A DNA stretch of 64,000 nucleotides from Blepharisma japonicum (lineage: Eukaryota > Ciliophora > Heterotrichea > Heterotrichida > Blepharismidae). The notes beneath the pieces were generated by a model, which worked only from the letters and a program-made list of their open reading frames with translations, was not told where the DNA came from and did no database searches. The position numbers were made by a program, and so were the translations under genes. Shown here piece after piece: positions 6,232-64,000 of the stretch (the first letter of the stretch is position 1; the number at the start of each line of letters is the position of its first letter). The stretch lies in contig CATKHK010000039.1 of the NCBI GenBank assembly GCA_949751835.1, positions 248,001 to 312,000 on the forward strand. The letters run 5' to 3'.

Positions 6232-6250
6232 AACGTAGAAACTAATATAA

Positions 6251-8758: not shown

Positions 8759-8830
8759 TTAATATTGGCTTTATTTAAATCTCTTTCATTTAATACTAAT
8801 AAAATTTCTATTTTGGGTAAGTGTTTTAAA

Positions 8831-8852
8831 TGCTTATCATATAAAATAAGCA
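8831..8852. other. Hairpin downstream of aminopeptidase copy 2
   Basis: Perfect 7-bp inverted repeat TGCTTAT / ATAAGCA around an 8-nt AT-rich loop, about 72 bp after the stop. The same hairpin follows copy 4 and a weakened one follows copy 3. It may be a 3' end element or simply inherited flank. Confidence 0.5.
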
Positions 8853-9060
8853 TATTAATAAGCTAACATCATAACTAAATATATGATAAGATTATTAAAA
8901 GATTAATTAATACATCAATATAGCTTCTGAATTTTATTGCATCATTATTTACTATGGAATTATCAAAGCTTTACAATCTGACCAATAAAAAGAAGAAGAA
9001 AAATTTACTTACCCTACGATACACTTGCATTCTTTCGATTGATTCTGATTGCTTTATAAC

Positions 9061-9208
9061 AACACTCTATTGTTTCATAATAACACTCTGCTGTTTCATC
9101 ATAACACTCTATTGTTTCATAATAACACTCTGCTGTTTCATCATAACACTCTATTGCATCATCATTATCATCATTATCATCATTATTATCATCATCATTA
9201 TCATCATA
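9061..9208. repeat. 21-bp minisatellite (five units) plus ATC/ATT run
   Basis: Five 21-bp units from 9061 to 9165, alternating ATTG and GCTG variants (a 42-bp higher-order period), then an imperfect trinucleotide tract of ATC/ATT to about 9208. Expanded relative to the three-unit array at 5468. Confidence 0.88.
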
Positions 9209-9407
9209 GCACTCCGTTCCTTCAGCATCTCTGCCCATATCATCTTGAACGTCACTTATTAGTTGCAGAAATTTTGGATCCAAGCTCAGGATCCAGTTTT
9301 AGGTCTTCTCATCAATCTCATTTTTGGGCTCATTCAGCCCCAGGCGTAACAACTCCAAAATTAGCTTGATTACTAATTTTTGGCTTTTCCACGCTTACTG
9401 TTATCTT

Positions 9408-9447
9408 AGACTTATAGACAAAAAGGTTACTATTATGATACCTAATT
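9408..9447 (+). pseudogene. Remnant of the polycystin 3' end (tail only)
   Basis: About 40 bp matching the last codons of the polycystin gene (GACTTATAGACAAAAAGG... to the TAA), directly followed by the aminopeptidase 5' flank, as at 6190-6250. Confidence 0.7.
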
Positions 9448-9469
9448 AAAAACGTAGAAACTAATATAA

Positions 9470-11982
9470 ATGTCTGAAATAAGACTTCCTCAGCACATCA
9501 AGCCTACTCATTATTCTATTTCTTTGGATTAGTATTTTCTAGCTAGCTTTATGAGAGATCAATATTATGCAGGGACTGAAATAGTCACTATTCTTATAGA
9601 ATCTCCAACAAAAATAATTTATATGCATTCAGAATACCCAGTAGTTATCACAAGTATTGATATACTTGCTCCAATTAATGCAGATTTATCGCATTTTTCA
9701 ACAAATAATGATAAAATTTGTATTGAACTTCCTATGGAAATTGAAGGTGAAATTAAAATTAAAATTGACTTTGAAGTGAAGATGGATTTTGTCCTAAAAG
9801 GAAGTTATGTCTGTAAGAGCATAAATGAAACAATTATGGCCACTCTCATTTCGAGCCTATTTATGCAAGAAAAGCTTTTCCATGCTTTGATGAGCCAATA
9901 ATGAAAGCGAGATTTCAATTAAACGTTACAGCAGATGATGATTTTTTTGTTATTTCTAATATGAACTATACAGGAAAAAATAATTTAAATGGGAAAGTAG
10001 CCTATAAATTTGAAGAAACACCATTAATGTCTTGCTACCTCCTGCATTGGACTATATGCAAGCACAACCAAATTTCAACTATAGCTGACTGTGGGGTAAA
10101 AATTACTCTATATGCAGAAAACACTGATTTTTCGCATGATTTTCTTGACCTTGCTAAATCTACTCTTGATTTTTACAATAATTATTTTGGAATCCCATAC
10201 CCTCTTCAGAAGCTTGACCTTATTTCAGTTTTCGGTAATTTTTATATAGAACTAAAGGCCCCAGCTATGGAAAACTATGGATCTATAACATTTAGAGAAT
10301 GTTGCATAGAAAGACTTCCAAATGAAGACCTCCAGCTTTTTCCTAAGAACTGCCGCACTCTTTGTCACGAAATATCTCACATGTGGTTCGGAAATCTCGT
10401 TACTATGGAATGATGGACCCATTTGTGGCTAAATGAAGGGTTTGCAAAATTTATTGAGTATAAATGTCTGAATATTATTAAACCAAAATTTAAAATTTGA
10501 CAGAAATTTCTTATAGAAGTATGAAATTTTGCCATGGTTAAGGACAGACACAAAAGTACCCACCCAATAGAAGTGGAATGCAGTAATCCAAATAGAATTG
10601 AAGAAATTTTTGATGCAATTAGCTATTCAAAAGGAGCTTCACTTTTGAGGATGCTGGAAGATTTTATGGGAGAAGATGCATTTTTAAATGGGATTAGGAA
10701 GTACTTAAATGTGTATAAATGGAAAAATACGACCACAGATATGCTTTGGGAAATTTTAGCAGAATTTTCTTTTCCAGAAATCGGAGAAATAATGCAATGC
10801 TGGACTAAGCAAGAAGGGTATCCGCTGATCACAGTTAAATAATTTGATGATTCCGAGTATGAATTAACCCAATATTCGCGTCTAGGTAGAGATAGCTCTC
10901 ATTTGTGGCACATTCCTATTAAGTTTATTACAGACGATCTTAGTGTTCATTATGTGCTATTCAGCAATAAAACTACAACTATTAAGTTGGAAAAGCCAAG
11001 CAAATGGATAAAGCTGAATTCAAAAACAACTGGTTTCTATATGTCAATTTATTCTGATGAAATATTTTATGAAATATTAAAATCAATAAAACTCTTGAGT
11101 GTTGAAGATAGATATGGACTTTTGAGTGATTCAATACAATTTTATAAGGCAACTAAGACTGGATTTGCATATTTGGAAGATTTAATATTATCTATGATCC
11201 CAGAATATGAGTATATAATCATCAAACATACCAGTGCATTTACTACGCGATTGTGAAATAAATCTTTAAAAAAAAGCTCAAATAAGTTAGCAAAATTTTT
11301 TACATCGATATATAGACCATTTTGGGATAAATATAAATTAGATAGGGTAGAAGATTATTATGATTTTGACTCAACTAGGCTTATTTGCTATAAAAATTTA
11401 GTTGAAAAATGCAAAGACAGAGAAGTTGCATGGTATATTATAGAAGCAAAAGAAAATGGAACCTTAAGCGCTGAGCTAGAATCTTGCTATCTCTATAGTA
11501 AACTTTTATGTGCTTCCTTTGAAGAACATTACAACTTATCAATTAAGAACGTAAATTTTGGATATTTGATAATGAAAAATAGTGAAGATTCAGAATTAAT
11601 TAAAAATGTATTGCATTTTTATAGACTTTTTGATACTCAAGAAGCTTTGAAGATTAAAGAAGTTCTTTTTGATAACAAAGAGCCATCAAATTCTCAATTT
11701 TTATTGTCAGCACTGATAAAAGAAATTCAGATAGCTCAGGAAACCACTTATGTCAACATTCTTGCAAATTCAATTAATCATATTATAAAAAATCCTTGGT
11801 GCCTTGATAGAAATTTAATTAAACAAGAGCTTAAAGATGCGTCTGAAGATTTGTGTGACACAAAACCAGTCATTTCAAACTTTCTTCATTCAATGGCTGA
11901 TTCAGTTGAGATAACAGCAGAATTTAACTCGAATAGAGCATGTGATGAAATTTTTATATATCCCAATCAACCAATTAATTAA
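9470..11982 (+). pseudogene. M1 aminopeptidase, copy 3 (broken)
   Basis: Same layout as its neighbours: ATG 9470, 15-nt intron 9532-9546, zinc motif HEISH and LWLNEG retained. Two clear lesions are seen. A 1-nt deletion near 9842-9846 (GCCACTCTCATT where the other copies have GCCACTACTCATT) shifts the frame. A TAA at 10840-10842 replaces a Lys/Ile stretch that is open in all other copies. A one-codon deletion near 11256 is harmless. Downstream frames still align to the end (TAA 11982), and Trp codons are still TGA, so decay is recent. The GAMEN Gly is Pro (PAMEN). Not expected to give a full enzyme. Confidence 0.9.
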
Positions 11983-12396
11983 TATTAGCTTTATCTAAAA
12001 ATTTTTTAATGTTTATCATATAAAAAAATAAGTCTATTAATAAGCTCACATTATAACCGAAAATATGAGTTCAGATTATTCAAAGGCCAATTATATTGTC
12101 TAGTTTTTAGGGTGCTTCCCTAAGATAAAGATCAAAAATAGTGTAGACAGCTGGATTAAAGTATAAAAATAAAAAAAGGATTGAAAAAAAGCAAAGAAAT
12201 CAAGAAATTGAGCAAAAAACAAATGAAAGAGAATAAAGAAACAGAAGAAGAAGAAGAAGAAGAAGAAAAAGAAGAAGAAAAAGAAGAAGAAAAAGAAGAA
12301 AAATCAAATAAAGATAAAGATGAAGGAAGAGATAGTCTTATAAAGAAAAAAGGTTACTATAATGAAACCTAATTAATAGTGTAGAAACTAATATAA
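11983..12396. other. Spacer between aminopeptidase copies 3 and 4
   Basis: Holds a degraded hairpin flank near 12008 and the third polycystin remnant (12086-12373). No gene of its own. Confidence 0.6.
12086..12373 (+). pseudogene. Decayed polycystin C-terminal tail with GAA expansion
   Basis: Matches the polycystin tail from VADYIVWVLGCFPK through SKKQMKEN to the end, with stops inside. A GAA/GAAA microsatellite (about 12244-12300) has expanded the short Glu run of the parent. It is followed at once by the 5' flank of aminopeptidase copy 4. Confidence 0.82.
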
Positions 12397-14913
12397 ATGT
12401 CTGAAATAAGACTTCCTCAGCACATCAAGCCTACCCATTATTCTATTTCATTGGATTAGTATTTTCTAGCTAGCTTTATGAGAGAGCAATATTATACAGG
12501 AACTGAAATAGTCACTATTCTCATAGAATCTCCATCAAAATTAATTTACATGCATTCAGAAAGCCCAGTAGTTATCACAGGCATTGCTATACTTGCTCCA
12601 ATTAATGCAGATTTATCGCATTTCCGAACAAATAATGATAAAACTTGTATTGAACTTCCTATGGAAATTGAAGGTGAAATTATAATTAAAGTTGATTTTG
12701 AAGTGAAGATGGATTTTGTCCTAAAAGGAAGCTATGTCTGTAAGAGCATAAATGAAACAATAATGGCTACTACTCATTTCGAGCCTATTTATGCCAGAAA
12801 AGCTTTTCCATGCTTTGATGAACCAATAATGAAAGCCAGATTTCAATTAAACGTTACAGCAGATGATGATTTTTTTGTTATTTCTAATATGAACTATACA
12901 GAAAAAAATAATTTAAATGGGAAAGTAGCCTATAAATTTGAAGAAACACCATTAATGTCTTGCTACCTCCTGCATTGGACTATATGCAAGCACAATCAAA
13001 TTTCAACTATAGCTGACTGTGGGGTAAAAATTACTTTATATGCAGAAAACACTGATTTTTCGCATGATTTTCTTGACCTTGCCAAATCTTCTCTTGATTT
13101 TTACAATAATTATTTTGGAATCACATACCCTCTTCAGAAACTTGATCTTATTTCAGTTTTTCGTAAGTTTTATATAGATCTAAAATCCCGAGCTATGGAA
13201 AACTGGGGATCTATAACATTTGCAGAATTTTGCATAGAAAGACTCCCAAATGAAGATCTCCAGCTTTTTCCTAGGAACTGCCGCACTCTTTGTCACGAAA
13301 TATCTCACATGTGGTTTGGAAACCTCGTTACTATGGAATGATGGACCCATTTGTGGCTAAATGAAGGGTTTGCAAGATTTATTGAGTATAAATGTCTAAA
13401 TATTATTAAGCCAAAGTTTAAAGTTTGGCAGAAATTTCTTATAGATGTATGGAATTTTGCTATGGTTAAGGATATACAAAAAAATACCCACCCAATAGAA
13501 GTAGAATGCAGTGATCCAAATAGAATTGAAGAAATTTTTGATGCAATTAGCTATGCAAAAGGAGCTTCTGTTTTGAGGATGCTTGAAGATTTTATAGGAG
13601 AAGATGCATTTTTAAATGGGATTAGGAAGTATTTAAATGTGTATAAATGGAAAAATACGACCACAGATATGCTTTGGGAAATTTTAGCAGAATTTTCTTT
13701 TCCTGAAATAGGAGAAGTAATGCAATGCTGGACAAAGCAAGAAGGGTTTCCTCTGATAGCAGTAAAAAAAATTGATGATTCAGAGTATAAATTAACCCAA
13801 TATTCGTGTCTAAACAGAGATAGCCCTAATTTGTGGCATATTCCTATTAAGTTTATTACAGACGATCTTAGTGTTCATTATGTGCTATTCAGCAATAAAA
13901 CTACAATTATTAAGTTGGAAAAGCCAAGCAAATGGATAAAGCTGAATTCAAAAACAACTGGTTTCTATCGGTCAATTTATCCTGATGAAATATTTTATGA
14001 AATATTAAAATCAATAAAACTCTTAAGTGTTGAAGATAGATATGGACTTTTGGATGATTCAATACAGTTTTATATGACAGCTAAGACTGGATTTACATAT
14101 TTGGCAGATTTAATTGCATCTATGATTCCAGAATATGAATATATAATCATCAAATATACCAGTGAAGTTACTACATTATTGTGAGAAAAAAAATCTTTAA
14201 AAAAAATCTCACATAAGTTATCAGAATTTTTTACACCAATATATAGACCATTTTGGGATAAATATAAATTAGATAGGGTAGAAGATTATTATGATTTTGA
14301 CTCAGCTAGGCTTATTTGTTATAAAAATTTAATTGAAAAGTGCAAAGACAGAGAAGTTGCATGGCATATTATAGAAGCAAAAGAAAATGGAACCTTAAGC
14401 GCTGAGCTAGAATCTTGCTATTTCTATAGTAAACTTTTATGTGCTTCCTTTGCAGAACTTTATAACTTATCGATTGAGAATGTAAATTTTGGGTATTTTA
14501 TAATGAAAAATAGTGAAGATTCAGAATTAATTAAAAATGTATTACATTTTTATAGACTTTTTGATACTCAGGAAGCTTTGAAGATTAAAAACGTTCTTTT
14601 TGATAGCAATGAGCCATTAAATTCTACATTTTTATTGTCAGCACTAATAAAAGAAATTCAGATAGCTCAGGAAACTATTTATGTCAACACTCTTGCAAAT
14701 TCAATTGATCACATTATAGAAAATTATTGGTGCTTTGATGGAAATTTAATTAAGCAAGAGCTTGAAGATGCATCTGAAGATTTGCGTGACACAAAGCCAA
14801 TTATTTCAAACTTTCTTTATTCAATGGCTGACTCAGTTGAGATAACAGCAGAATTTAACTCAAATAGAGAGTGCGATGAAATTTTTATATATTTCGATCA
14901 GCCAATTAATTAA
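12397..14913 (+). CDS. M1 family zinc aminopeptidase, copy 4
   Basis: Fourth tandem copy, 833 aa: ATG 12397, 15-nt intron 12459-12473, TAA 14913. HEISH and Glu in LWLNEG present. TGA at 13339-13341 and 14182-14184 are Trp. The GAMEN motif reads RAMENWG. The C-terminus ends with a few residues not in copies 1-2 (DQPIN), shared with copy 3, so copies 3 and 4 form one subgroup and 1 and 2 the other. Frame is open throughout; likely functional. Confidence 0.92.
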
Positions 14914-42221: not shown

Positions 42222-45200
42222 ATGTACTCTACAAGATATTATGATACATGGGGATCTCTTCAACAAGACAAAAAAAGCTACGTCGGCCTATCAAACCAAG
42301 GAGCCACCTGCTACATGAACAGTCTTCTTCAAACTTTATTCATGTCTTACGACTTCCGCAAAGAGCTTTACAAATGGCAATATGATCAAGATCGTCATGG
42401 TGAAAAAGAAGATTGTATCCCTTTGCAGCTTCAATTGCTTTTCAGTAAGCTTCAACTACGAGAATACCACTACATAGAAACCACAGGACTGACCAAAAGT
42501 TTCCAATGGGACATGCGAGATGGCTTCCAACAACACGATGTCCAAGAATTCTGTCGAGTTCTGTTTGATGCTATTGAACAAAGCGTTGAAAGCACTGACC
42601 AAGCTAATATGATAAAAAAACTATATGAAGGAAGCTACATAGACTACGTGAAATGTTTAAATTGCTTAAGAGAAAGCTCTAGAGAAGATAAATTCCTGGA
42701 TCTAAGCTTAACTGTCCGAAACGATTTCGATAAAATTTACAATGATTCTATAGAAAAAGCTTTAGCAAATTATATAAGGCCTGAAGAACTGACTGGGAGC
42801 AATCAGTATTACTGTGAACATTGTGGGGGAAAACAAGATGCCATTAAAGGGCTGAAATTTAAGTCTTTGCCGTATATTTTGGTATTGCAGTTGAAAAGGT
42901 TTGACTTGGATTATGAGACTTTCCAGAGGATAAAATTAAATGATAAGGTCACTTTTCCTCAGATTTTGAATATGAACCCATTTGTAAGAGAAATCCCACA
43001 CGGAGACCCTGAGAGAATAGAAATTGAGTCAGAACATTCTGAGGAAGAAGAAATCCCTATGGTAATTCCTAAAAATCTTGACGATCTGCAATTAGTCCAT
43101 AGCAAAATCAGCACCTATGACACGATTGGAGGGGATTTTGACAAAAAACCTCTAAAACTTGACAAAGTCGCCAAAGAAAAGCACATAGCGATGCGGGCTG
43201 AAGAAAAAAAGCACGAAAGAGCCAAAATGATTCACAAGTATAGAGAAGACGGAGAAGACGTGTATGAGCTTTATTCAATTATGATTCATTCAGGGTCAGC
43301 TAATGGAGGGCATTATTATGCATATATAAAGTCTTTTGAGACGGAAAGATGGTACGATTTTGATGATTCTTCAGTAAAAGAAATTGATGAAAAAGACATA
43401 GAAAAAGTATTTGGTGGGGAAACAAAAAGCTATGGATGGTCCAGCTCTTATTCAACAAATGCCTATCTCCTTATGTATCGAAAAGTCGACGAAAGTCGCA
43501 ATATTTTGAGAGTGGAAGACTCTGAAATTCCTCCTTATATTTTAGAGGAAATTGAGCATGAAAGAAATAAAGAAAGAGAAGAACTTAACGCAAGAGAAGA
43601 AAAAAGGAAAAATATTAAGCTAAGGATTTTTTATCAAGGAAAAGAAAAAGAGCTTGAAATTAATAGAGAAATGCTGGTCAAAGAACTAAAACTTAAAGCA
43701 ATGGAAGAATTTTCGATCCCTGCTGAAGAAGAAAAAAACGTCAGAGTAAGAAATTACAGCCAATATTATGATACAAACCAAGAAGTTCTTGATGAAGAAA
43801 ATTCAATAGAAAATGAAAATCTTTTTTCACAAAAAATACTTGCATTAGAAACTAAAAAAAGTGATGAGGTTTTTGAAGATTATGACCCTAGTAAATATAC
43901 AGTAAAAGTCAACGTGTGGAATGATAAATACTCAGACGATGATATCCCATATGACCAAAAAATCGCTAACCCAAAAAAATTTTTAATTGACAAAAGAAGC
44001 ACTATTAGACAAATGATGACACTTTTTGAAGAAAAATTAGGGATTCCTTTTAGCAAGCAAAAAATTCTAAAAAAAAGTTTTATGACGATGAATTCGCAGC
44101 CTGAGGTGCTGTCAATTAAACATTATTATGACCAATCTTTAGCATTTTCAAGAGTATATGATGGCTCCACACTTTTTGTGGAAGAAATGGACGACATTTC
44201 AGCAAAATCCAAGTGGCAGGTTGAGTTCGAAAAAGAGTCAAATAAACTTGTAATTAAATTCAATAACCCTGACCAAATCACAAAATATTCTTCCCCAGAC
44301 TTCAAAGAATACGTCACAGTCCATTCACAGAAAACTTTGGCAGACCTTAAAACTTTAATTTCTGCACATCTAAATATCCCTGAAAATGAATTTATTATGA
44401 AAAGAGGCAGCTTATATGGAAGTGAGCTAAAAGACATGACTTTAAAAATCTGCACCGCAAATATTATGAATAATTCTTATATTTATGTAGAAAAAGGAAT
44501 TCCTGCAAATCCTAATGAAGTTAGGCTCGTTTTTTCAGTTGCGGTGCCACCTAAAGATGGAGAAAGCGATGGGGTCGTGTTTGGCTTTGAAGATACCTTT
44601 GAAATTTCGGTAAATTTAAAAGCAAAAATTATTGATATTAAGAAAATCGTCTGTGAAAAATTAAAAAAAATTCATCCGGAATGGGAGCTAAATCCACTGA
44701 ACATTAGATTGAGGGAAAAAGTTAATGAGAAATTAGCAAAACCCTATACGAATGATGACAGTTTGAATATTTATCATACTTATGATAGGAAAAATATTGG
44801 GATTCAGGTTTTAGAGGAAGAAGAAAAGTCTTTGGATTACTATGAACTCTTGCTGGTCGTGAGGAGATGGTGCCCGTCTACTTGGGAATTGTCAACTCCA
44901 AGGGAGGTCGTGGTGAATAAGCATTGGAGGCTTTCAGAATTTGGTACAAAATTAAGTGAAATTTATAATATCCCTGTAAAATTTATTTAGCAAGAAAATA
45001 TTGAGGTAGCAAAAATTACGTACTCGTGGAGCTTTATTAGAGGAGAATTGTTGACTGAGGATTTTATAAGCACATATAATAATTATCATTATATGTCAGC
45101 ACAGCCGTGGCATCTGAGTTCTGATGGTACACTTTTCATGTAATAAATATTTAGTATCAAAGACAGCAGAGATATCTTAAGAGACATGACAAAAGAAGAA

Positions 45201-46993: not shown

Positions 46994-47869
46994 TTAATCA
47001 TCATGGAAAATAGCTTTCATTCTCCCGTAAAACTCTTGCTTTTCTTTTACCCTGTCAAAATAAACCCCACTATCAAACTTTTCAGCTTGGTTTTTCAATT
47101 CTGACATCATATTAAAAAACATGCTTTTTGTAATGTAATTTAATATCGCTTTCGGTATGAATTTCTATATAAAAAATACCACTGCTGTGTTAGTTTTGCT
47201 AAAAAACATAATTTCGCATTCATTATTTTCTGTGGCTTTTAAAAGTGTTCCTCCTAGTGGTATCGTCATTCTTGTTTTTTTCTCTGGACTTGGCAACGTA
47301 AATCCAAGGTAATCTGAATATCTAGGGCTTCCCATTACAATTAATATAGATTTCAGCTCTTCCATTGGGATATACTTTGCAGCTAAAATACTTTCTCTAT
47401 TCACCAGTGGCCATGGCAAATCATATTGATACCTAAGCAACCTCCTGTTTTCCCTAGGGTCAAATAAAACTTCACTGTTTTTTACTGTGTGTATTCATGA
47501 AGGAAGCAAATCGACCTCTCGTAAAATTGCAAATAAATTAATTGCTGGACAATGAATTGCTGCTTGGCATTTAATAAAAAAATCTTCTCCTTTTCTTTTT
47601 GTTGATACTGATATCTCATTTTTCTCCGCAATTGTCTCTCAATCTTCTTCATCGATGAGGTAGCCCAGTAATAAACTTACATCGTCCATTTCTTGAGAAA
47701 AATGCTGATATTCATTATTATTGCTCAACAGCTGCTTAAGATCTAGATTAGTTCTAAGTTGCGAATCTAAATAGAACATACCGATTTGATAGTAGAGATC
47801 AAGTTCTTTTTCGAAATCTTCTTCGTAAAAAGCTTTGACAAATTCATTCATGAGAGTTGCTGTGTCCAT
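46994..47869 (-). CDS. START-like lipid-binding domain protein
   Basis: 286 aa; start ATG 47869, one 15-nt intron at 47165-47179 (GTATTTTTTATATAG on the minus strand), stop TAA 46994. The N-terminal ~75 residues are helical. From about residue 95 a START-type fold is suggested: FFIKCQAAIHCPAINLFAIL, EVDLLPSWIHTVKNSEVL, DLPWPLVNRESILA, then a C-terminal helix after the intron (KFIPKAILNYITKSMFFNMM). Two TGA Trp codons are needed. START domains bind lipids or sterols; the ligand is unknown. No signal peptide. Confidence 0.78.
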
Positions 47870-48091: not shown

Positions 48092-49003
48092 TTACTTTCT
48101 ATCTATTAGTATATCTATAAAGCTGATTAACGAAAAAATCCCACCCAGAATAGAGCACAACGTGATAATAAACTGTGAAGTGAATTTCTCTTCTATTGAG
48201 TATTTCATCGAAATACAATCAAAATCATATCTATAATAAATTGTGCTAACTTCTGAACTCGACCTGCTTGACAAAGAATTCATTGAAAACTCATAAAAAT
48301 TATAAATTTTTTCACTTTCCACTTCATATTGCACGGGTGTTATTTTCATTACATGTTCATGCCTAAACCCAAGCTCTTCTTCCCGGAAGGTTTCTTTAAA
48401 ATATTTTTTCATTTTAATCTCACTGTTATTGAAATATCTTCCAATATTTTCGTTCCACTTTTCGTCTCCTATTTGGATAGAATTTATTGTGTGTTCTAAG
48501 GTAAGCTCAGATAAAATATCACTAGGTAGACTGTGCAATAGGTTTTCATGTGCATGAAAACCTATATGAAAATTCCCTGGTACAGTCAGTACTGGGATTG
48601 TGCCTCATAGATGGCATCCTTCTAGGTCATCTACAGCATTTTCTATGTTTTCATACGTCAGATTTAAGCTGCCGGGAATTTTTTTGCCTTCTTCATCTAT
48701 TCTATCTTTGTGTATAGATTTGCAATCTTCTTCATAAGAACCAATTATATCTTGCCAATCTACTGTGAGCAATAGGCAAGGAGATTTTGGAATCGTTATG
48801 TCGATAGAAATGTTAACAATCTTGGCCAGTTCTGTAGGGACAATTGTAATTTGTTTGGAAATTGATGGAGATTTGAAAGAATCCAGCTCAAATAGAAAAA
48901 GGAAAAGCATAGAAGAAAATGAAAAGATAGTAAAAAGACCTCCAAGCGCAGTTTGTCTAGCTATGTCTGGATTAGTTTTTGTGAAAAGGTCTAGTTTTTT
49001 CAT
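48092..49003 (-). CDS. Erv41/Erv46 (ERGIC) family cargo receptor
   Basis: Membrane protein cycling between ER and Golgi in COPII vesicles. 303 aa, ATG 49003, stop TAA 48092, one TGA Trp (48605-48607). Typical N-terminus KKLDLFTKTNPDIARQTALGGLFTIFSFSSM enters the first transmembrane helix. The luminal domain includes SIDITIPKSPCLLLTVDWQDIIGS and GCHLWGTIPVLTVPGNFHIGFHAH. A second helix near the C-terminus (FIITLCSILGGIFSLISFIDIL) ends in a short cytosolic tail. Both termini cytosolic, as known for the family. Shorter than Erv46 and closer to Erv41/ERGIC2. Confidence 0.9.
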
Positions 49004-50695: not shown

Positions 50696-53600
50696 TTAAG
50701 AGCGAACTCTAGCAAATTCCAAGTTATGCTCAATGACAGATACAATTGAGCTTACAACGCTTTCTACCAAATTAGTCATGCCTGCAAGAGTTATAACTTC
50801 CATATTTCCTCCATATTCAGCTTTGAAAAGATCTGCTGTTTTATTTAAAATATTGCTGAGCTTTACCAATTTTAATAAGGTTTTTTGAGACTTCATGTCC
50901 TGCAACAAATTTTTCCATTTATGTCCACAGGGGCATCCATCTGGATATTGCGTATTGTCATAGAATTCCTTACCGTGAGGAGAATCATCTGCAATTATAA
51001 AATAAATTCTAGATGCAGAAGGTCTCCACTGAAGCCTATTTGCATTATAAATTCCATCGATCATTGCTTCTCCATATTTAGCACCCCCACCCCCAGCATT
51101 CAAAGAACTTAAAAAGCTAAGTGAGGCATCTTTATTGAAATCATTAAGATTTCTAGAAGGTGGATATATCGTAACTGGGTTTAGAGGATCAAGCCCACCA
51201 CTATCTGTATGGTGGTCTGTATATCCAACTATTGCAAATTTTGTTGAAATTCCTCGGGATAGGTAATTATTTACCACCATAGTAATAATTTCTTTTACTT
51301 TTGGGAATGATGAAGACATCGACCCAGTGCAATCTAATATAAAGCATATATCAAAAGAAGATGATCCTTCATGATGGCAAGGAAAGTCATGATCCCCATA
51401 TTTATCAGAAAAAGTATGATATAATTCTGCATTACAGTAAATTTTTTCAGCATGATCAGGACTGTTGCAAAAATATGGACACTTGCTAAATAATTGTTGT
51501 GCTTCAGGATTTTTACTTTCAACTGGAGGATCCCAATTGTAATGGCGCCAGTAGGCTGTACATTGGAGAAGATCATATATAATTTCTGGATTTGGCTGGT
51601 ATCTGTCACTTGAATGAACTGCTAAGCCTACTAAAGTTTTAGCATAGCATCTAGTTCCTCCTGGACATTCTAAAGGATGTGAATGGCCTCTTCCTTTTCT
51701 TAGGCAGCTTTGATCACAAAAATCAGGCTTTGCTGCTTCTCCTGCTTTTAAAATCCTTATTGTTTTTTTTGATACTCCTTCAGCTAGATCTTCATCATCT
51801 TCATTTTCGATGTCGAAGGTCTCTTTTTTAGCTATATAAATGCATTTTTCTTTATTTCTATGGGCTGGTGAGAAATGCGACCCTTCATGTCCAGCAAGTT
51901 TCTTGCAAAATGCATCACAATCAGGGCATTTTTCTTCACATGTGTGATCTTTTGCGGGGCATTCATGAGATTCTTCATGACGAATTTTATATTGAGGAAT
52001 AGAAATTCCACAGGCAGATTTAGTTGCTTCTTGATGAGTGTAATGATAAGGAAATTTATTTAAGCCATTATCAAAAATCCTAACTTCATTTTTTATATTT
52101 ATCTTGCAAATTCCTGCTATTTTGCATATATTTTCGCATTTATGAGTTCTATTGCAGATATGAATTTGCTCTCGCGTTTCACTTTCCTGAGGAAACTCAA
52201 TTTCTTCACTCAGCGAGTGAAGATGGTTTTGGCTTGCACAAGTCATACCGCAGTCTTTCATGCAGCATGCTAATGGGCAATTTGACTGCCCACAATCATG
52301 CAATGGGTGATTTTCTAAGCATTCTTTATCGCATTTTCTTTTACAATAATCAAATAATTCGCATTTCTTTCCACAAGAGTGTTTTGATTCTCCACACATA
52401 TGATCTCCATTGTGATTAGGATTTTTTATGCATTCCTTATTACAAATATCATACAGCAAACACTTATTTCCGCATATATGTTTTTTCATGTTGCACATAT
52501 GCTCTCCATGATGACCTGCAGGAAATGCGCAATCTTTAGAATCTTCACAAATGCTACATTTAAATGGGCAGCAATGATTAGTTGTGCAATCACACTCACT
52601 TGCGTGATTTATAATTTTTAAGCAGATTCTGTCACATTTGCTGCATTTTCGCCCACAAATAGAGTGCTGATTTATAATTTTATCAAGATCTCTTTCTACT
52701 GAGGCGATTTCGCTCTCAGCATATTGTGCTAGCTCTGAGGATTTAGGAAGGCTCCCTGTGAAATAATTTAGCATTTCTTGTTTCCATAAAATAAAATATT
52801 CTTTGATTAGTAAGTCTATGCAAGTATACCATTCATTATGGTAAAACTCATTATCTCTTTCTTCAGTTTCATTATGCAAAATTTTTTTGAAAGGAGATAG
52901 TGTTTCTTTTAAATCCAGGGTTACAGACTTTACTGCGATATTTATTTCTATTGTTCTCCCAATAAATTCTAATTTTAGAAGTAGCATTGACTCGGGCTTT
53001 ATAACTTCTTTTGCGCTAGATGGATCTTGAATGATCTCTTTAAAATATTTTTTCAAAGCTGCAATTTTTATTTGAAGTGTTCTATCATCAATGCTTGTTG
53101 TGTCATCAGCATAAATTTGTGCAAGCACTGTTTTCAAAGTTATTAAAAGCTCTTTTCCAGATTTTCAGCGAATTGGTACGTTTTCTAGATAATAAAGCTT
53201 TCTAGCCTCAACAGCAGAGTCAAACAATTTTTCGTTTTCGTAATTATGGTATGACGAGCAAGAGAATTGCCCCTTAAAAAGCTTAAGCAGAAAATCAGCT
53301 TTATTGCAATCTGTCAAGTATCTTATAAATTTTTCAAGTTCAACAAGTGCTTCTTCATCTTGATTTTCTCCCACATCTCTTAATGCAACTTCTAGTTTTC
53401 CTTGAAACAGAGCTGATCCATTTAGTCTGTCCATTCCAAAAGTGAATTTTTCAAAGAGATAAGTAAGGTTTCTATTAAATGTAAGATCTTGATTTAAAAT
53501 TGTAACATCAGCAACAGCTGATAAAAATAAGCAAAGCTTTATTTCCTCTTGGACTGTCCTTTCGATTGAAAAAAGCCCCTCGCAGTCCATAATTACAAAT

Positions 53601-56600
53601 AATTGTCCTTCTATGTTGGCCAAAGATATCCATATTCCATCTGTGCAGCGATGTGCTGCTACATCAAATCTTGTTCCAAAAATTCTATTAAGTAAATAGC
53701 TTTTCCCTGAGCTTTGCTTTCCAATAATTGCAATTACTCTAATATTATTAGCTGATGATATTAGATTCTCGAGATTTCCCAATTTGATGTAGTCAACAAA
53801 TGTCTCAATGAAATTGCTTGTTGTGTCAAGTTCCTCATTTAAATTTTCTGCATTATTTAATCCATTTTGAAGAGGTATTAAATTTCCTTCTTGAATAGAC
53901 GCCAAGTGCAATGGCTGTCTTGTTTGAATAATTCATGTTAAAACTTCTTTTGAAATTTGCTGATCATTAGCCAGTTCTTCAAGTCTTTGAAGGTTATAGG
54001 GGTAAATAAATCCTTGATATCTTAGTGATTGTTTTATTGAGACTATAGATTTGATATATTGATCAACTTTAACGTTTTTTATATCGCAATAAACAAAAAA
54101 TTCTTTATCACTGTCGCCATTATTAATTAAATTGATCTTTTTCCCAAATTTTGATAAAGCAAAATGAATAATATCAATAGCTGGGTTACCAGGAATATTT
54201 TTACGCTTTTTAATTGTTCTTTTTAGGTTTGTAAATTCTCTCTCACTCAAGAATCGATATGCTTTAAACATGTAAGTTTGATCATATATAATAATATAAT
54301 TGAACATATTATCTGTAAGACATTTGAAGCCAACAAAATTTGGTCCAATAGAAATTTTTTTCAAAAATTTAAAATTCACATCATAAAGTTCTATATCTTG
54401 TGTTGTTCTCAATAAATAGGTGGTTTCGTCAACTGAACATTTTACTTCTAAGAATGAAAGTCCAGATTGAGAGCGAAGGTAGTCACTTGAGCCATGCATA
54501 TCTTTAGATTCTTCAGGCAATTGAGATATTTTAACTGGGTGAAGTAGCTTATCTTGACTAAGCAATTCTATATAAAATAAGAACCCTTCCTCATTTAATA
54601 ATAGCACTCTTCGTTTTTTAGGTAAAATGCAAGCTGAATTGACTTTCTGTACCATCTCCCTATAAACTTTTAACTCCGATCCTTTGTCAATATATTTCCC
54701 TTGCTGTATTGCTCCATAATAAGCCTTCTGAAGGCTATTTTGGAAAGCTAAAAATAAGTTTGGACTTGAACCTGAGGCAAGAATAAAATCACTTTTTAGC
54801 CTAGAAATCAGATTGGTTTCATAAGTGTAATTCTGAGTAGGATTAAATTGAACTATCTCAGTTTGAAATTCATTACTAAGTAAAAGATAGGCTATATTCT
54901 CAGAAAATGATATTATCTGTATATTAGAAAAATCACATTCAGTCGTATATTTATTTTCAATACCAGATGATTTAAGTTGTATCCCTGCTTCTGTAATTAT
55001 TATTTTAGCTGTTTCAAAACTGTATGTATATTTCATCTTTACATCAATTGAATTTTCAATAATTTCGCTGGATTTGTTTTCTGCTTCGTTAATCAAAGTT
55101 GTGAAAAGAGATTGATAAGCGGATCTAATTTCTTTATCCCAATAATCTATGAATTTTTCATATTCCGATTGAATAAATAACCTTTTTTGATAAGTATCTC
55201 CATCTTCGTAATATTGCAAAATATCGCGATTGGTTTCTTCAGGAAATTTTATATTAAATATATAGCTACTAAGATATTTTGATTTAGTTTTAAATTCATT
55301 GAATTGGAATCTGAGGAGATTTTGCTTTGCATTTTCTAAATCATTTGAAAAATAAGATGAAAAAAATCCTTTATCATTTTTGTATTCAAATAATGCTTTA
55401 AAGCTATCAGTAAATTCATTGAATTTAGTGTGAAGCAATTCAATCATTTGGGAATTAACCTTTCTATACAAGCTTTTTATAGATTCCAAAACACCGTGAA
55501 TTTCTTTTATAGATCTTTCACATGAACTTTTAAAAGTATGAAAAATACCTAAGTTTTCTAAAGATTCAATGAAGCTGTAAAATCCTGATTTTTGTATTCT
55601 GGTGTTTATTGAGTGAAATAGCTTGGTTCTGGCTTTAAATATTTTATCTACTTCACTGTCTCTGTTTTGAAAATATTTTTTAACTGTAAAAATATGAAAA
55701 TAGGAGTCAAACGAAAGTAAAAACCATCTATTATAGCAATATAGATTTTCGGAGACTTTAACTTCTTCTATATCAGACAGTCCAATGTTTTGTCTCTCAA
55801 GGTTGATGTCCATTCCTAGATGTAGTTTAGGGACAAAAGGATTCTGCTCACCCTCTACATTTGACTGATACCAGTTATCTAAAGCTTGTTTAGGAGGGCA
55901 GCAGACCACAGCTGAGCAGATATCAAACAAAAGTCTTACAAAAATAAATTCTTTTGAATAATTTGGGAATGGTTTATCTATATAAACCTGTTGATTTCTG
56001 CATTTAAAATATAAGCACAATCTTCTAGACTCTTGAGAATAGAAGTATGCAATTCCTTCTCTGACATCTTTTAATAAATTTATGGAGAGCTTCTTAATAT
56101 TCAAAAGCTTTGAAAGGAGCTCAACGCATTTTTCTTCACAACCATAGACGCCTATAACCTCATTATTATCACTTAATGACCCTATCAAATTTTCACAGGC
56201 CGAAGAAATTATTTGCCATTTTGTGATAGTGAAGTTTTGTGCATTATCAACAATGCTTTCGAATAATACTCCTTGGACTTCACACTCTTCTTCTAGATCT
56301 TCATATAAAGTAGTTTCTTTTGTTGTTTCACTTTCTTTTTTTTCTTCGATAATAGGAGCTTCCTTTTTAATGCCTTCAGAAATAATTTCAATTTCCTCAT
56401 TTTCAGACAAATCCATAGATATTGAATGAGTAGAAGGTTTTAAATTTTTATCAAATTCTTCTGCTATGTCTAGATCTTCATTTTTATTTTCTTCAACTTC
56501 AGCAATTTCAACCTTGAGTAAAGGCTCAGTTGTTGAAAGAGTTGGAAATTCAATAGTCTCAGGTGCTTTTGCTTCCTCGGAGATGATTTCTTGCTTTTTC

Positions 56601-56914
56601 TCGGGAACTTTTGCCTCTTCTTTTTCTTTGGGCTCCATTTGTGGATCTTCTTCCATTTCTACAATTGTATGCTGTTTTCGTCCGCTCATAAAGTGATCTC
56701 TAAGACAACTATAGCATATGAAAGTATTGCATTCCGTGCATTTAAGCTCTTGAGGACTTTTCAGACACAAAGTGCAGAATTCTATAGGAGCAAGGCTATG
56801 AGATGCTTTATTGAGAACGTGAATTGGTATGCAAAAATCACATATAAGTGATTTATCAACAGAGCATCGATATGAAGGTGGCTTCTCTTGGCAATGCTTA
56901 CAAGAAGACTTCAT
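50696..56914 (-). CDS. B-box / large GTPase / Cys-rich / vWA multidomain protein, copy 1
   Basis: 2072 aa, single frame when TGA is Trp (53933-53935, 53165-53167 and others), no intron. Order: two B-box-type zinc fingers (residues 1-90; CKHCQEK..., CTLCLKSPQELKCTEC); an acidic Glu/Lys linker (90-220); a conserved region (220-990) with helical parts and beta-rich stretches; a large GTPase with GKQSSGKS (1065-1072), switch Thr1091 in HRCTDGIW, DCEGL (1110) and LRDV (Arg1179-Asp1180). The RD motif in place of NKxD marks the GBP/atlastin/RHD3/VLIG class. Next a Cys/His-rich region (~1415-1790) with repeated HxxxHMC and CGxxC units. Last a vWA domain with metal site DCTGS (Asp1861), IVGYTDH and IADDSPHG, like vWKA-type kinases but no kinase follows. 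Function unknown. Confidence 0.88.
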
Positions 56915-58424
56915 TTATTATTATAAACTTGCAATTTTATTTTGCTTGATATCATTATCTATGATTCTATAAATTATTGGAAATTTATTATGAAAATTGA
57001 ATTATATTAAGCTATTCATTTTTTCTTTGTAATTATTTCAATAAGATGTGAATGAATCTTACTAATAGATAGATTATTAAGAATCATTTCAGGTAAACCT
57101 ATGAAATCCTTATTTTAAGCTTATCAGAACAAAATTTGTGAAACTAGCCTTTAAATAGATAAAAGAAATATAAATTATTTTTTAATTAAATTAGGTCTTG
57201 AATAATGTTGAGTGACTTGAAATTGATGAAAATTAGCATTTAATAAAACAATTATCTTAGTCTGCATTTACTTATTTTTATATTCTTTTATTTAGCTTTA
57301 AAAAAGAAATTATATAAAATTTTTCATGTAAAAATAGCTGTTAGATTTAAACTTTGTTTGCAGTTATGAACTTTATTATGTTATTTTAAAGAAAAGTTTC
57401 CAGCATTTCTCTCTTTTGATTATGTCAACAAATAAATTAATCCCTTAATGCTTTTATACACCTTCGCAAATTCAAAATAAATTAAAATAAAAAATAAAAA
57501 CAAAGATTTGACTTTTACACTTATCAATTAGTGATCACACATTTATTTTCTCTTTTAATTGTCAACCTTAATTTATGTAATTATTTAAATATAAATATAT
57601 CGCTTGACTCTGTTAAAATTTCTATTCTTATTAGCAGCCATTTTCATTTCAACTATCCTATTAATTCTAAAGAAAGTCTTATGCTGTTTGTAAATCTCTA
57701 CTTAGAGCTGGCATGACGCATAAATTATACAATGATTTTATCTTTTTAAAATTTTTATTAGTCCATTTATTACCTTTTAAATTCTAGGACTTAAAAAGAA
57801 GAAAATTATACAACTTTATGTATTTGCATAAACATTTTAATTATATTTTGTGCTTTTCTTATTATCTAAGCATATAAATATATAATATGACATTATTGAA
57901 GGCATTGCTTTATTCGTATTTATCTGGTATCTTAATTTCCAATATATATTTTCTTCCCAGATTTTATTTCTTTATATTGCAAAACTATATTTATTGAATG
58001 GTAATATTCTTGTAGATGCTTATCACTGTTGATAATAAACTTAAACCAAATGGCTATTACATGCGAATAAATCAAGAAAAATATTTACTTTCCATTTCTA
58101 CAAATAATTAAATAAATATGGCTTCCTACCTTTTGGATATTTTATGTCATTCCCCAGCATATAAACGTTCGACTAAAAGGGCAATGCCTAATATAATTCA
58201 ATGAAAAAATCAATGGAGTGTTAACTCTTCATTGAGATTAACTATTTTTTGCTATATTTAATTTTCTCATTTCTTTCCAATAGCATAATATAATGGTAAA
58301 ATTAGTTGAAATTCCATTCTCAGCTTATGATCTACAAGGAAAATCTTTTTAAATTTAAAATTCAATCTAACTGTAGATTCTTAACAAAGAGAAAAGGATG
58401 AAAATTTTATAGAATTATAATAAT
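56915..58424. other. Divergent intergenic region of the two giant genes
   Basis: 1.5 kb of very AT-rich DNA between the two ATGs. No frame with convincing content, no tRNA, no clear inverted repeat. It must contain both promoters. Confidence 0.6.
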
Positions 58425-61400
58425 ATGGAGTCACTTTGTAGCCAGTGTCATGATCAAAACTTTTCTTTTAGATGCACTACTGATAATACACTCTTATGCC
58501 AACAATGTGTTGCAAGCCATGCTATTATTGAAGGTACTCATACTATGGTTCTAGCAGCCTGCAGTTCGTGTAATAAAAAATTTCTGCAATTTAAACTGTT
58601 AGAAGGCAATTTATTTTTATGCTTCACATGTGCAAAGAAAATTGAAGAAACCAAAGAAGAAGCCCGTCCTCGTCCAAAAATGCCGCCAAAAAATAGCAGC
58701 ATAAAAGACCATTCTGATGAAGATACTGATTATATCCAAGGGGCTTTATTTGAAAGTGTAATCGATAACGCTCAAAACTTTACTATTAGCAAGTGGCAAA
58801 TAGTCACTTCTGGCTTTGAAAAGCTTATTGCATCTTTAGGAGAAAATATCAAAGTGATAGGACTTTATGGCTGTGAGGCAGTTTGTTTGGAGCTAATTTC
58901 AATGCTTTTGAGTATTGATAGGGTAAATCCAGAAAATTTGAAAAAACTTAAAGAAGGAATTGTTTACTTTTATGCACACAAAACTAGCTGCCTGTGCTTA
59001 TACTTTAAATGCAAAAATCCTGAAATTTATATAAAGAAGCCATATCCACATCATTCAAAAGAATTCATTTATGTAAGACTCTTATTTGATATTTGCACAT
59101 CTGTAGTATGCTGCCCTCCAGAAAAAGCATTGGAAAATTGGTACCACTCAAGTATCGAAGGCGAACAGAACCCATTCGTACCAAAACTTCACCAAGGAAT
59201 GGAAATTAATCTGGAAAGACAAACTATTGAGCTTTCTGATATAGAAGAAGTCAAAGTTACTGGGTTTTCAAATAATACCCGCTTTAACTTAGTTTTAATA
59301 TCATCTGATTCCTACTATCGGGTTTTTGCGGTTAAAAGATCATGTCAAGATGTCTTACAAGAAATCAGCAAAATTGAGGATGCCAAGAATAAACTATTCT
59401 ATGCAATTCAATCTAAAATTAAAAACTCAGGATTTTTAGACTTTATTAGAAGTTTAGATATTGCGGGCTATTTTTTGACCTTTAAAAACTCCTGCGAAAG
59501 ATCCATAAAAGATGCAAACGGCGTTTGTGCCTCTATTAAAGGCTTTTATAGAGATATCCATCGCAAAATCATGAGTATGATTGATGAAAAGTTCAATGAG
59601 TTTCAAGAAAGCTTTGAATCATCATTTAACTACAATAGGCAGAGCACCAAATACTACCTAATTTCAAATACCATAGATAATGATTTTGATAGGCTTAAGG
59701 AAAGCATAAAAAAGTTGGAATTTAATTATTTTAAAAATAAGTCCAGAGAGCTTAAAAATTATATAACAGGTGTCAAAGGTATTGAAGATGAAGAAATAAG
59801 TGAGTATGATAAAAATTTACTAATTGATGAATCTTATCAGAAATTTATAAATAGATGAGATAAAGAATTCTTAGACAGTTTCCGCCCACTCTTATTTAAC
59901 TTGTTAAAAGAGACTGAAAATAAGATAAGCGTAATTATTAATTGTTCAATTGATGTGAAAAAAAAATATTTTTATAGCTTTGAAACTATAAAAATAGTCC
60001 ACACTGATGCAGGAATAAAGTTGCAATCGTCAAGCATTGAAAATAAATATGTCACTGAGCAAGATTTTTTAGATATGCAAATAGTGTCATTTTCTGAGAC
60101 TATGGCTTATCTTTTACTTAGCAATGGATATCAAACTGAAATAGTCCAATTTAACCCAATTCAAAACTTCGCTTATGATACCAACTTAATTACTACTCTA
60201 GACAGTGATTTACTTATTGCTGAGGGGTCAACTCCAAACTTATTTGTAGCTTTCCAAAATCGTTCGCGAAAAGCTTATTATGGAGCCGTTCAGCAAGGAA
60301 AATATATTGATAGAGGAAGTGAATTAAAAGTATATAGCGTGAATGTGCACAAAGTCATTTCAGCTTGCATTTTACCAAAAAATAGAAGAATACTCTTATT
60401 AAATGAAGAAGGACGCTTATTTTATATAGAATTGATGAGCCAAGATAAGCTTATTCATGCTGTTAAAATTGCCCTGTTTGCTCCTAAAGAAGAATCAAAA
60501 GACTCTTATGAATCATATGATTTTCTTCGTTCCCAATCAGGGTTACCTTTCTTAGAAATAAAATGCTCTGTTGATGAAACAACATATTTACTGAGAACTG
60601 AGCGAGACATCGAACTTTATGATGTCAATTTCAAATTTTTGAAGAGAAACTCTATTGGTAGAGGCTTTGTTGGTTTCAAATGCCTAACTGATAATATGTA
60701 TAATTACATTATTTCATATGATGAACCCATAAAATTCAGGGCACAAAGGTTCTTAAGTGAACGAGAGTTCACAAGCTTAAACCGGACAGTTAAAAAGCAC
60801 AAATCAATTCCAGGAAACCCAATTATTGACGTAATACATTATTCGTTATCGAAATTTGGGAAAAAAGTAAATTTGATTAGCAATGCCGATATTGAAAAAT
60901 ATTTTTTTATTTATAGCAAACAGAAGAACGTAAAAGTTGATCAATATATCAAGTCAATAACGTCCATAAAACAATCATTAAGCTATCAAGGATTTATTTA
61001 TCCTCATAATTACGAGAGACTTGAAGAGCTCAGCAGCGATCAATTAATTTCTAAAAATGACTTGACCTGGATTATTCAGACAAGGCAGCCTTTGCATTTG
61101 GCATCTATTCAAGAAGGAAACTTGATACCTTTGCAAAATGGACTGAATAATGCTGAAAATTTAAATCAAGAGCTGGACACGACAAATAATTTTATAGAAA
61201 CTTTTGTTGACTATATTAAACTGGGGGATTTAGAAAAACTTATAACATCTGCTACCAATCTGAGGGTCATAGCCATCATTGGAAAACAAAGTTCTGGAAA
61301 AAGTTATCTTCTGAACAGAATTTTTGGAACAAGATTTGATGTTGCAGCACATCGTTGCACTGATGGTATATGAATCTCTTTAGCTAATATTGACGGAAAA

Positions 61401-64000
61401 CTATTTATCATTATGGACTGTGAAGGACTTTTTTCGATCGACAGGACAGTTCAAGAAGAGATCAAGCTTTGTTTATTCTTATCAGCAGTTGCAGATGTTA
61501 CTATTTTAAATCAAGATCTTACATTTAATAGAAATCTTACATATCTTTTTGAGAAGTTTACATTTGGGATGGATAGACTTAAAGGAACTGAACTTTTTAA
61601 AGGTAGGCTTGAAGTTGCTCTTAGAGATGTTGGAGAAAATCAAGATGAAGAAGCTCTTACTGAGCTTGAAAGGTTTATAAGATATCTTATAGACGGCAAT
61701 AGAGCTGATTTCTTGCTCAGATTGTTTAAAGGCCAGTTCTATTGTTCTTCATATCACAACTATGAAAATGAAAAGCTTTTTGATTCTGCTGTTGAGGCTA
61801 GAATGCGCTATTATTTAGAAAGTGTGCCCATTCGATGGACTTCTGGAAAAGACTTTTTAATTACATTGAAAACTGTCTTGGCACAAATCTACGCTGATGA
61901 CACTACTAGTATTGATGACAGGACACTTCAAATAAAAATCGCAGCTCTAAAAAAGCATTTTAAAGAAATAATTCAAGATCCAGCATCCGCAAATGAAATT
62001 ATAAAGCCAGAATCCATGCTAAATTGTAAGCTTGAGTTTTTAGGAAGGGTAATCGAAATAAGCCTTCCTATAAATTCAGTTAGCCTAAGCTTAAAGGAAA
62101 CACTAGTCCCTTTCAAAAAAATCCTTCATGGAAAGACTGCTGAGCGCGATGATGAATTTTATCATAATGAATGGTACTTATGCATTGATATACTAATAAA
62201 AGCGTATTTCAATCTATGGAGGTCAGATATGCTAAATCATTTTCTTGAGAAACTTCCTAAGTCAGCAGAGCTGATTCAGTCGACAGAAAGCGAAATAGCT
62301 GCAATTGAAAGAGACCTTGATAAAATAATAAATCAGCATTTTATATGTAGGAGAAAATGCAGCAAATGTGAAAGAGTCTGCTTAATGAATTTAAATCATA
62401 CAAATGAATGCAATTGTACAACTGATCATAAATGCCCATTCAAATGCGCGATTTGTGAGGATATTAAAGATTGCGCATTAGTAGCTGGCCACTATGGGGA
62501 GCATATGTGTAATATGAAAAAGCATATATGTGGGCATGACTGTATTATGTTTACTATATGTGGAAATCAATGCATAAAAAATCCTAACCATAACGGAGAT
62601 CACATGTGTGGGGAATCTAAGCATTCTTGTGGGAAAAACTGTGAGTTATATGAGCACTGCAAAAGAACGTGTGACAAGGATTGCACAGAAGATCATAAGC
62701 TCCATGATTGTGGGCAGTCAAATTGTCCGTCAACATGCTGTATGAAAGAGTGTGGAATGAATTGTGCTAGCCAAAATCATCTACATTCGCTTAGACAGTA
62801 TTAAAATTTTTTATTAATTTTTTTAATTAAATTTTATTATCAGAAAGTCAGTAACATAGTTGAATTCCCTCAGGACGTCGAAGTTCTTAACCCAATCTGT
62901 ATTTGTAATAGACCCCATCCATGCTTTGAAAAATGCGAAGCTATTGGATGTTGCAAGGTGGAAATTACGAATGAAATAATTATCTATGACAATGGCTTGA
63001 ATAAGTTTTCCATGCGTTGAACCCGTCAAGAAGCTGTAAAAGCCGTTTGCGCAGCTTCTATCCCTCAATTTAAAATTTCTCACAAAGAAAATCACGAATG
63101 CAGCTCAAGAGTCCATACTTGCCTGGAAAAATGCCCTGATTGCGATGCTTTTTGCAGTAAACCTGCAGGACATGATGGTTTGCACTCATCTCCAGCTCAT
63201 AGAAATAAAGAAAAATGCATTTATCTCGCCAAAAATGAGACTTTTGATGTTGAAAATGAAGATGTTGATGATCTTGCAGGAGGAGTATCAAGAAAAACTA
63301 TAAGAATATTCAAGGCAGGAGAAGCTGCAAAGCCTGATTTTTGTGATCAAAGCTGCTTAAGAAAAGGTCGAGGACATTCACATCCTTTACAATGTCCAGG
63401 AGGTCCAAACTGTTATGAGAAAACTCTAGTAGGCTTAGCAGTTCATTCAAAAGATAGATATCAGCCAAATCCAGATATTGTTTATGATTTACTTCAATGT
63501 ACAGCTTATTGGCGCCAGCAGAATTGGGAACCTCCAGTAGAAGGTAAAAATCCAGAAGCTCAGCAATTATTCAGCAAGTGTCCTTATTTTTGTAATAGTT
63601 CTGAGCATGCTGAAAAAAGCTATTGTAATGCTGATTTATATCATACTTTTTCAAATAAATATTCGGATCATGCATTTCCTTGCCGTCATGAATCATCATC
63701 GAATTTTGATATATGCTTTATACTTGACTGCACCGGATCTATGGCTGCCTCATTTCCTAAAGTAAAAGAAATTATTACAATTGTTGTTAATAGTTACATT
63801 TCTCGAGGGGTTTCAACAAAATTTGCAATAGTGGGTTATACTGATCATTATGGAGACAGCAATGGCCTTGATGTTAACAATCCAGTTACAATATATCCGT
63901 CTTCTCGTAGATTAGATGATTTCAATAAGGATTATGCTATCACTTTTTTAAATTCTCTTAGTGCAGGTGGTGGTGGCAGATTGTATGGAGAAGCAATGAT
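58425..64000 (+). CDS. B-box / large GTPase / Cys-rich / vWA multidomain protein, copy 2 (runs off the window)
   Basis: Divergent paralogue of the gene at 50696-56914, head to head with it. It starts ATG 58425 with B-box-like CSQCHDQNFSFRC, a shorter linker, then the same conserved region. TGA 59856-59858 and 61371-61373 are Trp. GTPase: GKQSSGKS from residue 953, HRCTDGIW, DCEGL, LRDV. The Cys/His-rich region follows. At 62802 a TAA interrupts the frame inside an AT-rich insertion (62798-62851); after it the same frame resumes (EFPQDVEVLNPICIC...) and continues through the rest of the Cys-rich region to a vWA domain (DCTGSM near 63728) that is open at the window end. Either the insertion is removed from the RNA or this copy is truncated after the first half of the Cys-rich region. 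Confidence 0.82.
62798..62851 (+). other. 54-nt AT-rich insertion interrupting giant gene copy 2
   Basis: Begins GTATTAAAATT and ends GTCAG, flanked by the repeated pentamer CAGTA (62796-62800 and 62849-62853). Absent from paralogue copy 1. Removing these 54 nt (GT...AG) restores an open frame joining LR(H) to NIVEFPQ. It lacks the 15-nt form of all other introns here. It may be an atypical intron, a retained internal eliminated sequence, or a lesion. Confidence 0.55.

Follow-up and report, generated by a model that had tools for sequence, protein, structure and literature searches.

The 64,000-nucleotide stretch analysed here (the window; positions 248,001 to 312,000 of Blepharisma japonicum contig CATKHK010000039.1) ends in two giant genes, A and B, that lie head to head and encode paralogous proteins, 69.5% identical in their protein alignment. 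Each protein joins B-box zinc fingers, a large GTPase domain, a Cys/His-rich region and a vWA domain in one chain, with the following layout in window numbering:

50696..56914, minus strand: gene A, 2072 residues, a single open frame with UGA read as Trp
56666..56908, minus strand: two B-box zinc fingers of gene A (residues 3-44 and 46-83; PF00643, E = 1.2e-10, two stretches)
56279..56653, minus strand: acidic linker of gene A (residues 88-212; 42 Asp/Glu, 15 Lys/Arg), mostly missing in B
53960..56278, minus strand: middle region of gene A (residues 213-985), with no known domain
53165..53812, minus strand: large-GTPase domain of gene A (residues 1035-1250), placed by the G1, G2, G3 and LRD motifs and by profiles
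51365..52657, minus strand: Cys/His-rich region of gene A (about residues 1420-1850), with CxxxC, HxCxxxC and HxGxHxC motifs
50969..51352, minus strand: vWA domain of gene A (residues 1855-1982; PF00092, E = 6.1e-7, 30.3 bits)
56915..58424, no strand: spacer of 1510 bp between the two start codons
58425..64000, continuing to 64358 beyond the window end, plus strand: gene B, 1959 residues
58431..58550, plus strand: one B-box of gene B (residues 3-42; PF00643, E = 2.3e-7, one stretch)
61191..61838, plus strand: large-GTPase domain of gene B, 89% identical to that of A
62337..63705, plus strand: Cys/His-rich region of gene B, including a 54-nt insert
62798..62851, plus strand: the 54-nt AT-rich GT..AG insert, which holds the only in-frame TAA of gene B
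63708..64000, the match running to 64091, plus strand: vWA domain of gene B (PF00092, E = 3.5e-6), clipped at the window end

The first-pass annotation had described the span 50696..64000 as a divergent pair of giant paralogues. The open frames and the identity between the proteins confirm such a pair; the span takes in all of gene A but clips gene B, whose last 358 bases lie past the window end and were taken from the continuing contig. The reading of UGA as Trp is well founded, because TGG in one copy alternates with TGA in the other at four conserved Trp sites (positions 592, 994, 1095 and 1250 of A). Work on the genome of Blepharisma stoltei (PMC9942806) reports UGA as Trp, CCCTAACA telomeres, a 41-Mb genome with 66% AT, and introns mostly of 15-16 nt. 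In the genome that we searched (45.2 Mb, 224 contigs), four-CCCTAACA telomere repeats gave 62 forward and 79 reverse matches and the reversed control gave 0. Gene B contains a single in-frame TAA, at 62802, and its frame can be restored by four GT..AG excisions (54, 84, 96 and 114 nt), of which we chose the 54-nt excision because all sequence alignable with A then stays in the gene. This insert is probably an intron, long beside the 15-16 nt given for Blepharisma in PMC9942806, or it may be a germline segment retained in the assembly. The spacer between the genes possibly holds a shared promoter region. A recent inverted duplication that included the flanks was considered and rejected, the flank homology being unconvincing (two short hits, the best of 34 bases at 82%, E = 0.003).

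Profile searches support all three domain types named in the first-pass annotation: B-box, large GTPase and vWA. The B-box cut-off (PF00643, 24.1 bits) is exceeded in A (41.8) and in B (31.3), as is the vWA cut-off (PF00092, 23.8 bits; A 30.3, B 27.8). The B-boxes claimed earlier are thus recognised by Pfam, two in A, the second of which (residues 46-83) also matches an ANCHR-like B-box, and one in B, where the second is degenerate and has lost its signature in both the alignment and the Pfam scan. The label TRIM-like claims too much, as a B-box is present but no RING in the pair reaches the Pfam cut-off (the zf-RING_2 match, E = 0.02, has 15.6 bits where 27.3 are needed, and it overlaps with the second B-box of A). 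The genome is in any case rich in B-boxes (65 matches) as well as in vWA domains (36), the pair being included in both counts; the genome searches score only the best candidates, and all counts of copies and matches given here are lower bounds. Gene A carries GKQSSGKS (residue 1065), CTDGIW (1090), DCEGL (1110), LRD (1178) and DCTGS (1861), which we take to be G1, G2, G3, G4 and a MIDAS-like motif. The GKQSSGKS, DCEGL, RD and DCTGS signatures seen by eye in the letters are therefore present in A, both copies match the vWA profile, and the set of G1, G2, G3 and LRD is intact in both. The Cys-rich region is likewise real, with 46 Cys and 32 His among the 426 residues 1425-1850 of A, and finds no counterpart in Pfam even at an E of 10. 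Against solved structures, the zinc-rich and vWA part together finds nothing to E 0.1 and the vWA domain alone has a best E of 0.24; NCBIfam returns for A only general bacterial GTPase models, far under their cut-offs. Residues 213-985 of A form a further large conserved region that had not been named before. Residues 201-985 scanned as one piece against Pfam give nothing above cut-off, and three matches of the middle region to solved structures (best E = 0.028, ribosomal protein S6) were taken as chance. Hydropathy in a 19-residue window, computed for A, peaks at 1.84 at residue 323, inside this middle region, and by this measure A has no strong hydrophobic segment after the GTPase.

The divergence between the copies is distributed unevenly along the chain. 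Identity reaches 89.1% in the GTPase part (residues 985-1250), 76.1% in the helical part that follows, 73.2% in the Cys-rich region and 77.8% in the vWA domain; in the middle region it is 63.4% (residues 213-400), 46.4% (400-660) and 72.7% (660-985), and it is about 30% in each of the B-boxes and the linker, where 102 of 125 columns are gapped. A conserved GTPase core beside a strongly different N-terminal linker, as proposed from the letters, is thus upheld (89.1% against about 30%). Nonsynonymous divergence (dN) is 0.065 in the GTPase, 0.58 in the B-boxes and 0.85 in the linker (23 alignable codons), while the proportion of synonymous differences (pS) is high throughout (0.54-0.74) and, at 0.735, is highest of nine regions in the GTPase. 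Gene conversion as the source of the GTPase identity is rejected on the basis of this last value, and because synonymous differences are most frequent there, the identity reflects purifying selection at the protein level rather than recent copying. These values indicate strong purifying selection on the GTPase in both copies and a labile N-terminus. The ratio of dN to synonymous divergence (dS) nowhere reaches 1 (0.022 to 0.73 across the regions), the ratios being rough with dS near saturation. The pattern of divergence would fit the earlier suggestion of an adaptable sensor and a fixed effector, but with dN/dS below 1 everywhere relaxed constraint explains it equally well.

The superclass suggested in the first-pass annotation (GBP, atlastin, VLIG) is borne out by the profiles, in which gene A has E-values of 5e-14 for URGCP_GTPase, 2e-9 for RHD3 and 5e-7 for GBP. 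In the protein scan URGCP_GTPase (PF25683, cut-off 55 bits) gives 52.2 bits for A and 52.5 for B, and in the genome search A reaches the cut-off with 55 and B stays under it with 52.3; 86 of 396 profile positions are matched in A and 74 in B. RHD3 remains under its cut-off of 42.4 (A 37.6, B 36.5 bits), in contrast to 238 and 233 bits for the Sey1 genes of the same genome, and neither A nor B has the Sey1_3HB three-helix bundle at E up to 1. The pair shares with GBP the order of motifs and a partial PF02263 match, which in A passes the cut-off of 21.1 bits with 29.6 but covers only positions 11-103 of 264, whereas the one GBP of this genome scanned as a control gives 186 bits over 4-263 with GBP_C present; no GBP_C helical domain is found in A or B at E up to 1. 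The GBP profile finds 25 matches in the genome: 16 score at least 94 bits, two are A and B, and the other seven belong to a different kind of GTPase. Two genes for Sey1, an atlastin-like GTPase of the endoplasmic reticulum, are also present, and because GBP and Sey1 both exist separately the pair replaces neither. In a tree of 17 rows drawn from this genome only (the pair, 2 Sey1, 8 of the 16 strong GBP matches and 5 of the 7 other GTPases), the four groups separate and the pair adjoins Sey1 on a long branch with moderate support (90/89). Gene A is 26% identical to the Sey1 genes and 20-22% identical to the eight GBPs, and the best relative among solved structures is Sey1 (5ca8, 7.1e-8). Since the profiles favour URGCP while the own-genome tree and the solved structures favour Sey1, the pair's GTPase appears to form a branch of its own, closest to URGCP in the first respect and to Sey1 in the other two. 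The term GBP-class is therefore too narrow for proteins that the tree places apart from the eight GBPs and that lack GBP_C. With the URGCP/VLIG (GVIN) proteins of animals the pair has in common its best GTPase profile and a giant chain; that family is not known to have the B-box, Cys/His-rich and vWA modules. The vWA pattern DCTGS...GYTDH...DDSPHG is presumably similar to that of Dictyostelium VwkA, a cytosolic protein, from which the pair differs in that Pfam finds no kinase domain in A.

Queries of the genome with each part of the protein return few relatives. The GTPase query has seven matches, of which two are the pair itself and the other five are weak (E = 2.5e-6 to 7e-4) and fall on Sey1 and GBP genes; the middle-region query has two, A and B; and the C-terminal query has five, namely A, two pieces of B, one weak piece and a gene with the vWA domain only:

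contig 26:56633-57343: stand-alone vWA gene, 237 residues, 64% identical to the pair's vWA, without the GTPase or the zinc region

This gene, on which NCBIfam finds nothing, may act with the pair or compete with it. The weak piece, at contig 26:41508-41738, is a 39% match to the pair's vWA with four internal stops, possibly a decayed vWA copy. The fusion of B-box and vWA with this GTPase is seen in the genome only at A and B, and the family count proposed earlier thus yields two full copies (plus the vWA-only gene) and no larger family. Topical searches of an open-access library turned up no description of a chain that unites a B-box, a GTPase of the dynamin superfamily, a Cys/His-rich region and a vWA domain; this is weak evidence, since such a library lacks the majority of subscription papers. 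Judged by its sequence, the architecture is real and unusual within the known large GTPases.

We propose, tentatively and with a probability that comes near to an even chance, that A and B act in the cytosol as multidomain scaffolds that assemble on GTP, powered by a large GTPase of the dynamin superfamily (URGCP/VLIG-RHD3-GBP branch). GTP should matter to the pair because the nucleotide site is intact and strongly constrained. Binding of GTP would bring the GTPase domains to dimerise, and the giant chains would then cover a membrane or particle with a coat or lattice; the zinc-rich/vWA tail would bind a target or partners, in a metal-dependent way if the MIDAS-like site works, and the variable end with B-box and linker would recruit other partners, such that the two copies may share one job with different partners. 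Dimerisation and assembly are here extrapolated from members of the dynamin superfamily. A possible precedent, by analogy, is human GVIN1, a giant GTPase that coats bacteria, built of an N-terminal domain, an unstructured linker and GTPase domains, the last of which dimerise in a predicted model, according to PMC11974893. Several observations weigh against this proposal. The URGCP-type score lies about at the cut-off and not clearly over it, and the genuine Sey1 genes of the genome themselves reach 41 and 37 bits with URGCP_GTPase. The GTPase activity, zinc binding, location and partners of the pair are all predictions. AlphaFold2, given segments of A aligned with B alone (two sequences), returned unusable models (pLDDT, the predicted local distance difference test, of 31.5 for residues 201-985 and 38.9 for 985-1450), in which an order of alpha/beta start, helical stretch and beta-rich part in the middle region may be taken as a hint at very low confidence. 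No relatives were confirmed in viral contigs (three scans) or prokaryotic genomes (two scans), in searches whose exact-peptide seeds miss distant relatives.

The pair may instead have a housekeeping function with no link to defence, in membrane remodelling or as a scaffold of vesicles or organelles (the contractile vacuole, phagosome and cortex being candidate sites), which we regard as possible though rather unlikely. The position next to Sey1 in the own-genome tree (90/89), Sey1 as the best solved relative (7.1e-8) and the strong purifying selection on the GTPase all fit such a function, and the presumed vWA likeness to VwkA would fit it as well. VwkA, a vWA protein, is listed with the contractile-vacuole network of Dictyostelium in a review (PMC7072818). 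However, neither a membrane anchor (hydropathy, A) nor the Sey1 three-helix bundle was found, and Sey1 itself is already present twice. In another reading, the B-boxes and the zinc-rich region would act with other proteins as a substrate adaptor of the ubiquitin system, with the GTPase as a regulatory switch; the B-box domains of the pair and the many B-box genes of the genome speak for it, but no RING reaches its cut-off (zf-RING_2, 15.6 bits against 27.3), and we hold it to be very improbable.

Cell-autonomous defence, in which the proteins, like GBP1 and GVIN1, would form coats around microbes that have been ingested or live inside the cell, or around their vacuoles, and the variable N-terminus would be a recognition or signalling arm, is in our estimate unlikely. 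The question is a fair one for a phagotrophic protist, because reviews report defence roles for plant GBPs (PMC9005921) and TRIM and GBP homologues with proposed immune roles in Dictyostelium (PMC5758549). Membership of the GTPase superclass, a fixed GTPase beside a labile N-terminus, and GVIN1 as precedent (PMC11974893) all point in this direction. Against it, only two full copies were found and no birth-and-death expansion was seen, no region has dN/dS above 1, the B-boxes are so widespread in the genome that they say little on immunity, and PADLOC, which is built for prokaryotic defence, gives nothing for A. A more specific form, in which a ciliate would have a giant GTPase defence coat of its own, akin to URGCP/VLIG, with the coat built by the fixed GTPase and the zinc-rich/vWA tail and recognition left to a rapidly changing B-box end, seems to us quite improbable.

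If the pair, as scaffold or coat, does cover membranes or microbes, it would show giant GTPases at work far from animals, and a true coat would raise the question of whether antimicrobial coats began in phagotrophic protists. A defence coat would place cell-autonomous defence of the GVIN type outside animals, in a unicellular predator. A housekeeping scaffold would still represent a large-GTPase branch distinct from GBP and Sey1, found in a culturable ciliate.

The genome contains a second unusual GTPase family, with seven open frames that carry a GLYDKGKT P-loop; all three of those scanned by Pfam have a C-terminal HSP20/alpha-crystallin domain:

contig 102:40866-51450: five frames in a row
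contig 103:89791: one frame
contig 7:526229: one frame

A degenerate second GTPase was considered in residues 213-400 of A, where VIGVYGCEEKC can be set against VIAIIGKQSSGKS; the resemblance is not significant and remains a lead. With hhalign, this segment aligns to the pair's GTPase in the expected register with P = 0.029, to a joint profile of the pair, Sey1 and GBP, which contains the pair itself, with P = 0.014, and to GBP, Sey1 and the HSP20-type GTPases with P = 0.055, 0.6 and 0.54; P was 0.097-0.62 in ten comparisons with column-shuffled profiles and 0.14-0.84 for four other regions of A. A second GTPase-like domain, of the kind predicted for GVIN1, has an hhalign probability of only 1.7-3.2%. 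In pairwise tests the local score is reached by 62 to 630 of 2000 shuffles and the global score by 513 to 833 of 2000, and when 73 windows of A are ranked, starts near 213 are absent from the 12 best shown.

Three open frames of 808-811 residues lie at 2779-5205, 6332-8758 and 12478-14913 of the window, the first two of which are M1-family aminopeptidases (205 and 208 bits), and 2779-14913 is likely a tandem array of this family. The neighbours of the pair look like ordinary genes, with a ubiquitin hydrolase at 42222-44987 and an ERGIC/ERV-type protein at 48095-49003; in 47165-47866 Pfam recognises nothing at E 0.01. The next frame past gene B, outside the window at 64723-66411 in the same numbering, appears by eye to be C2-domain-like.

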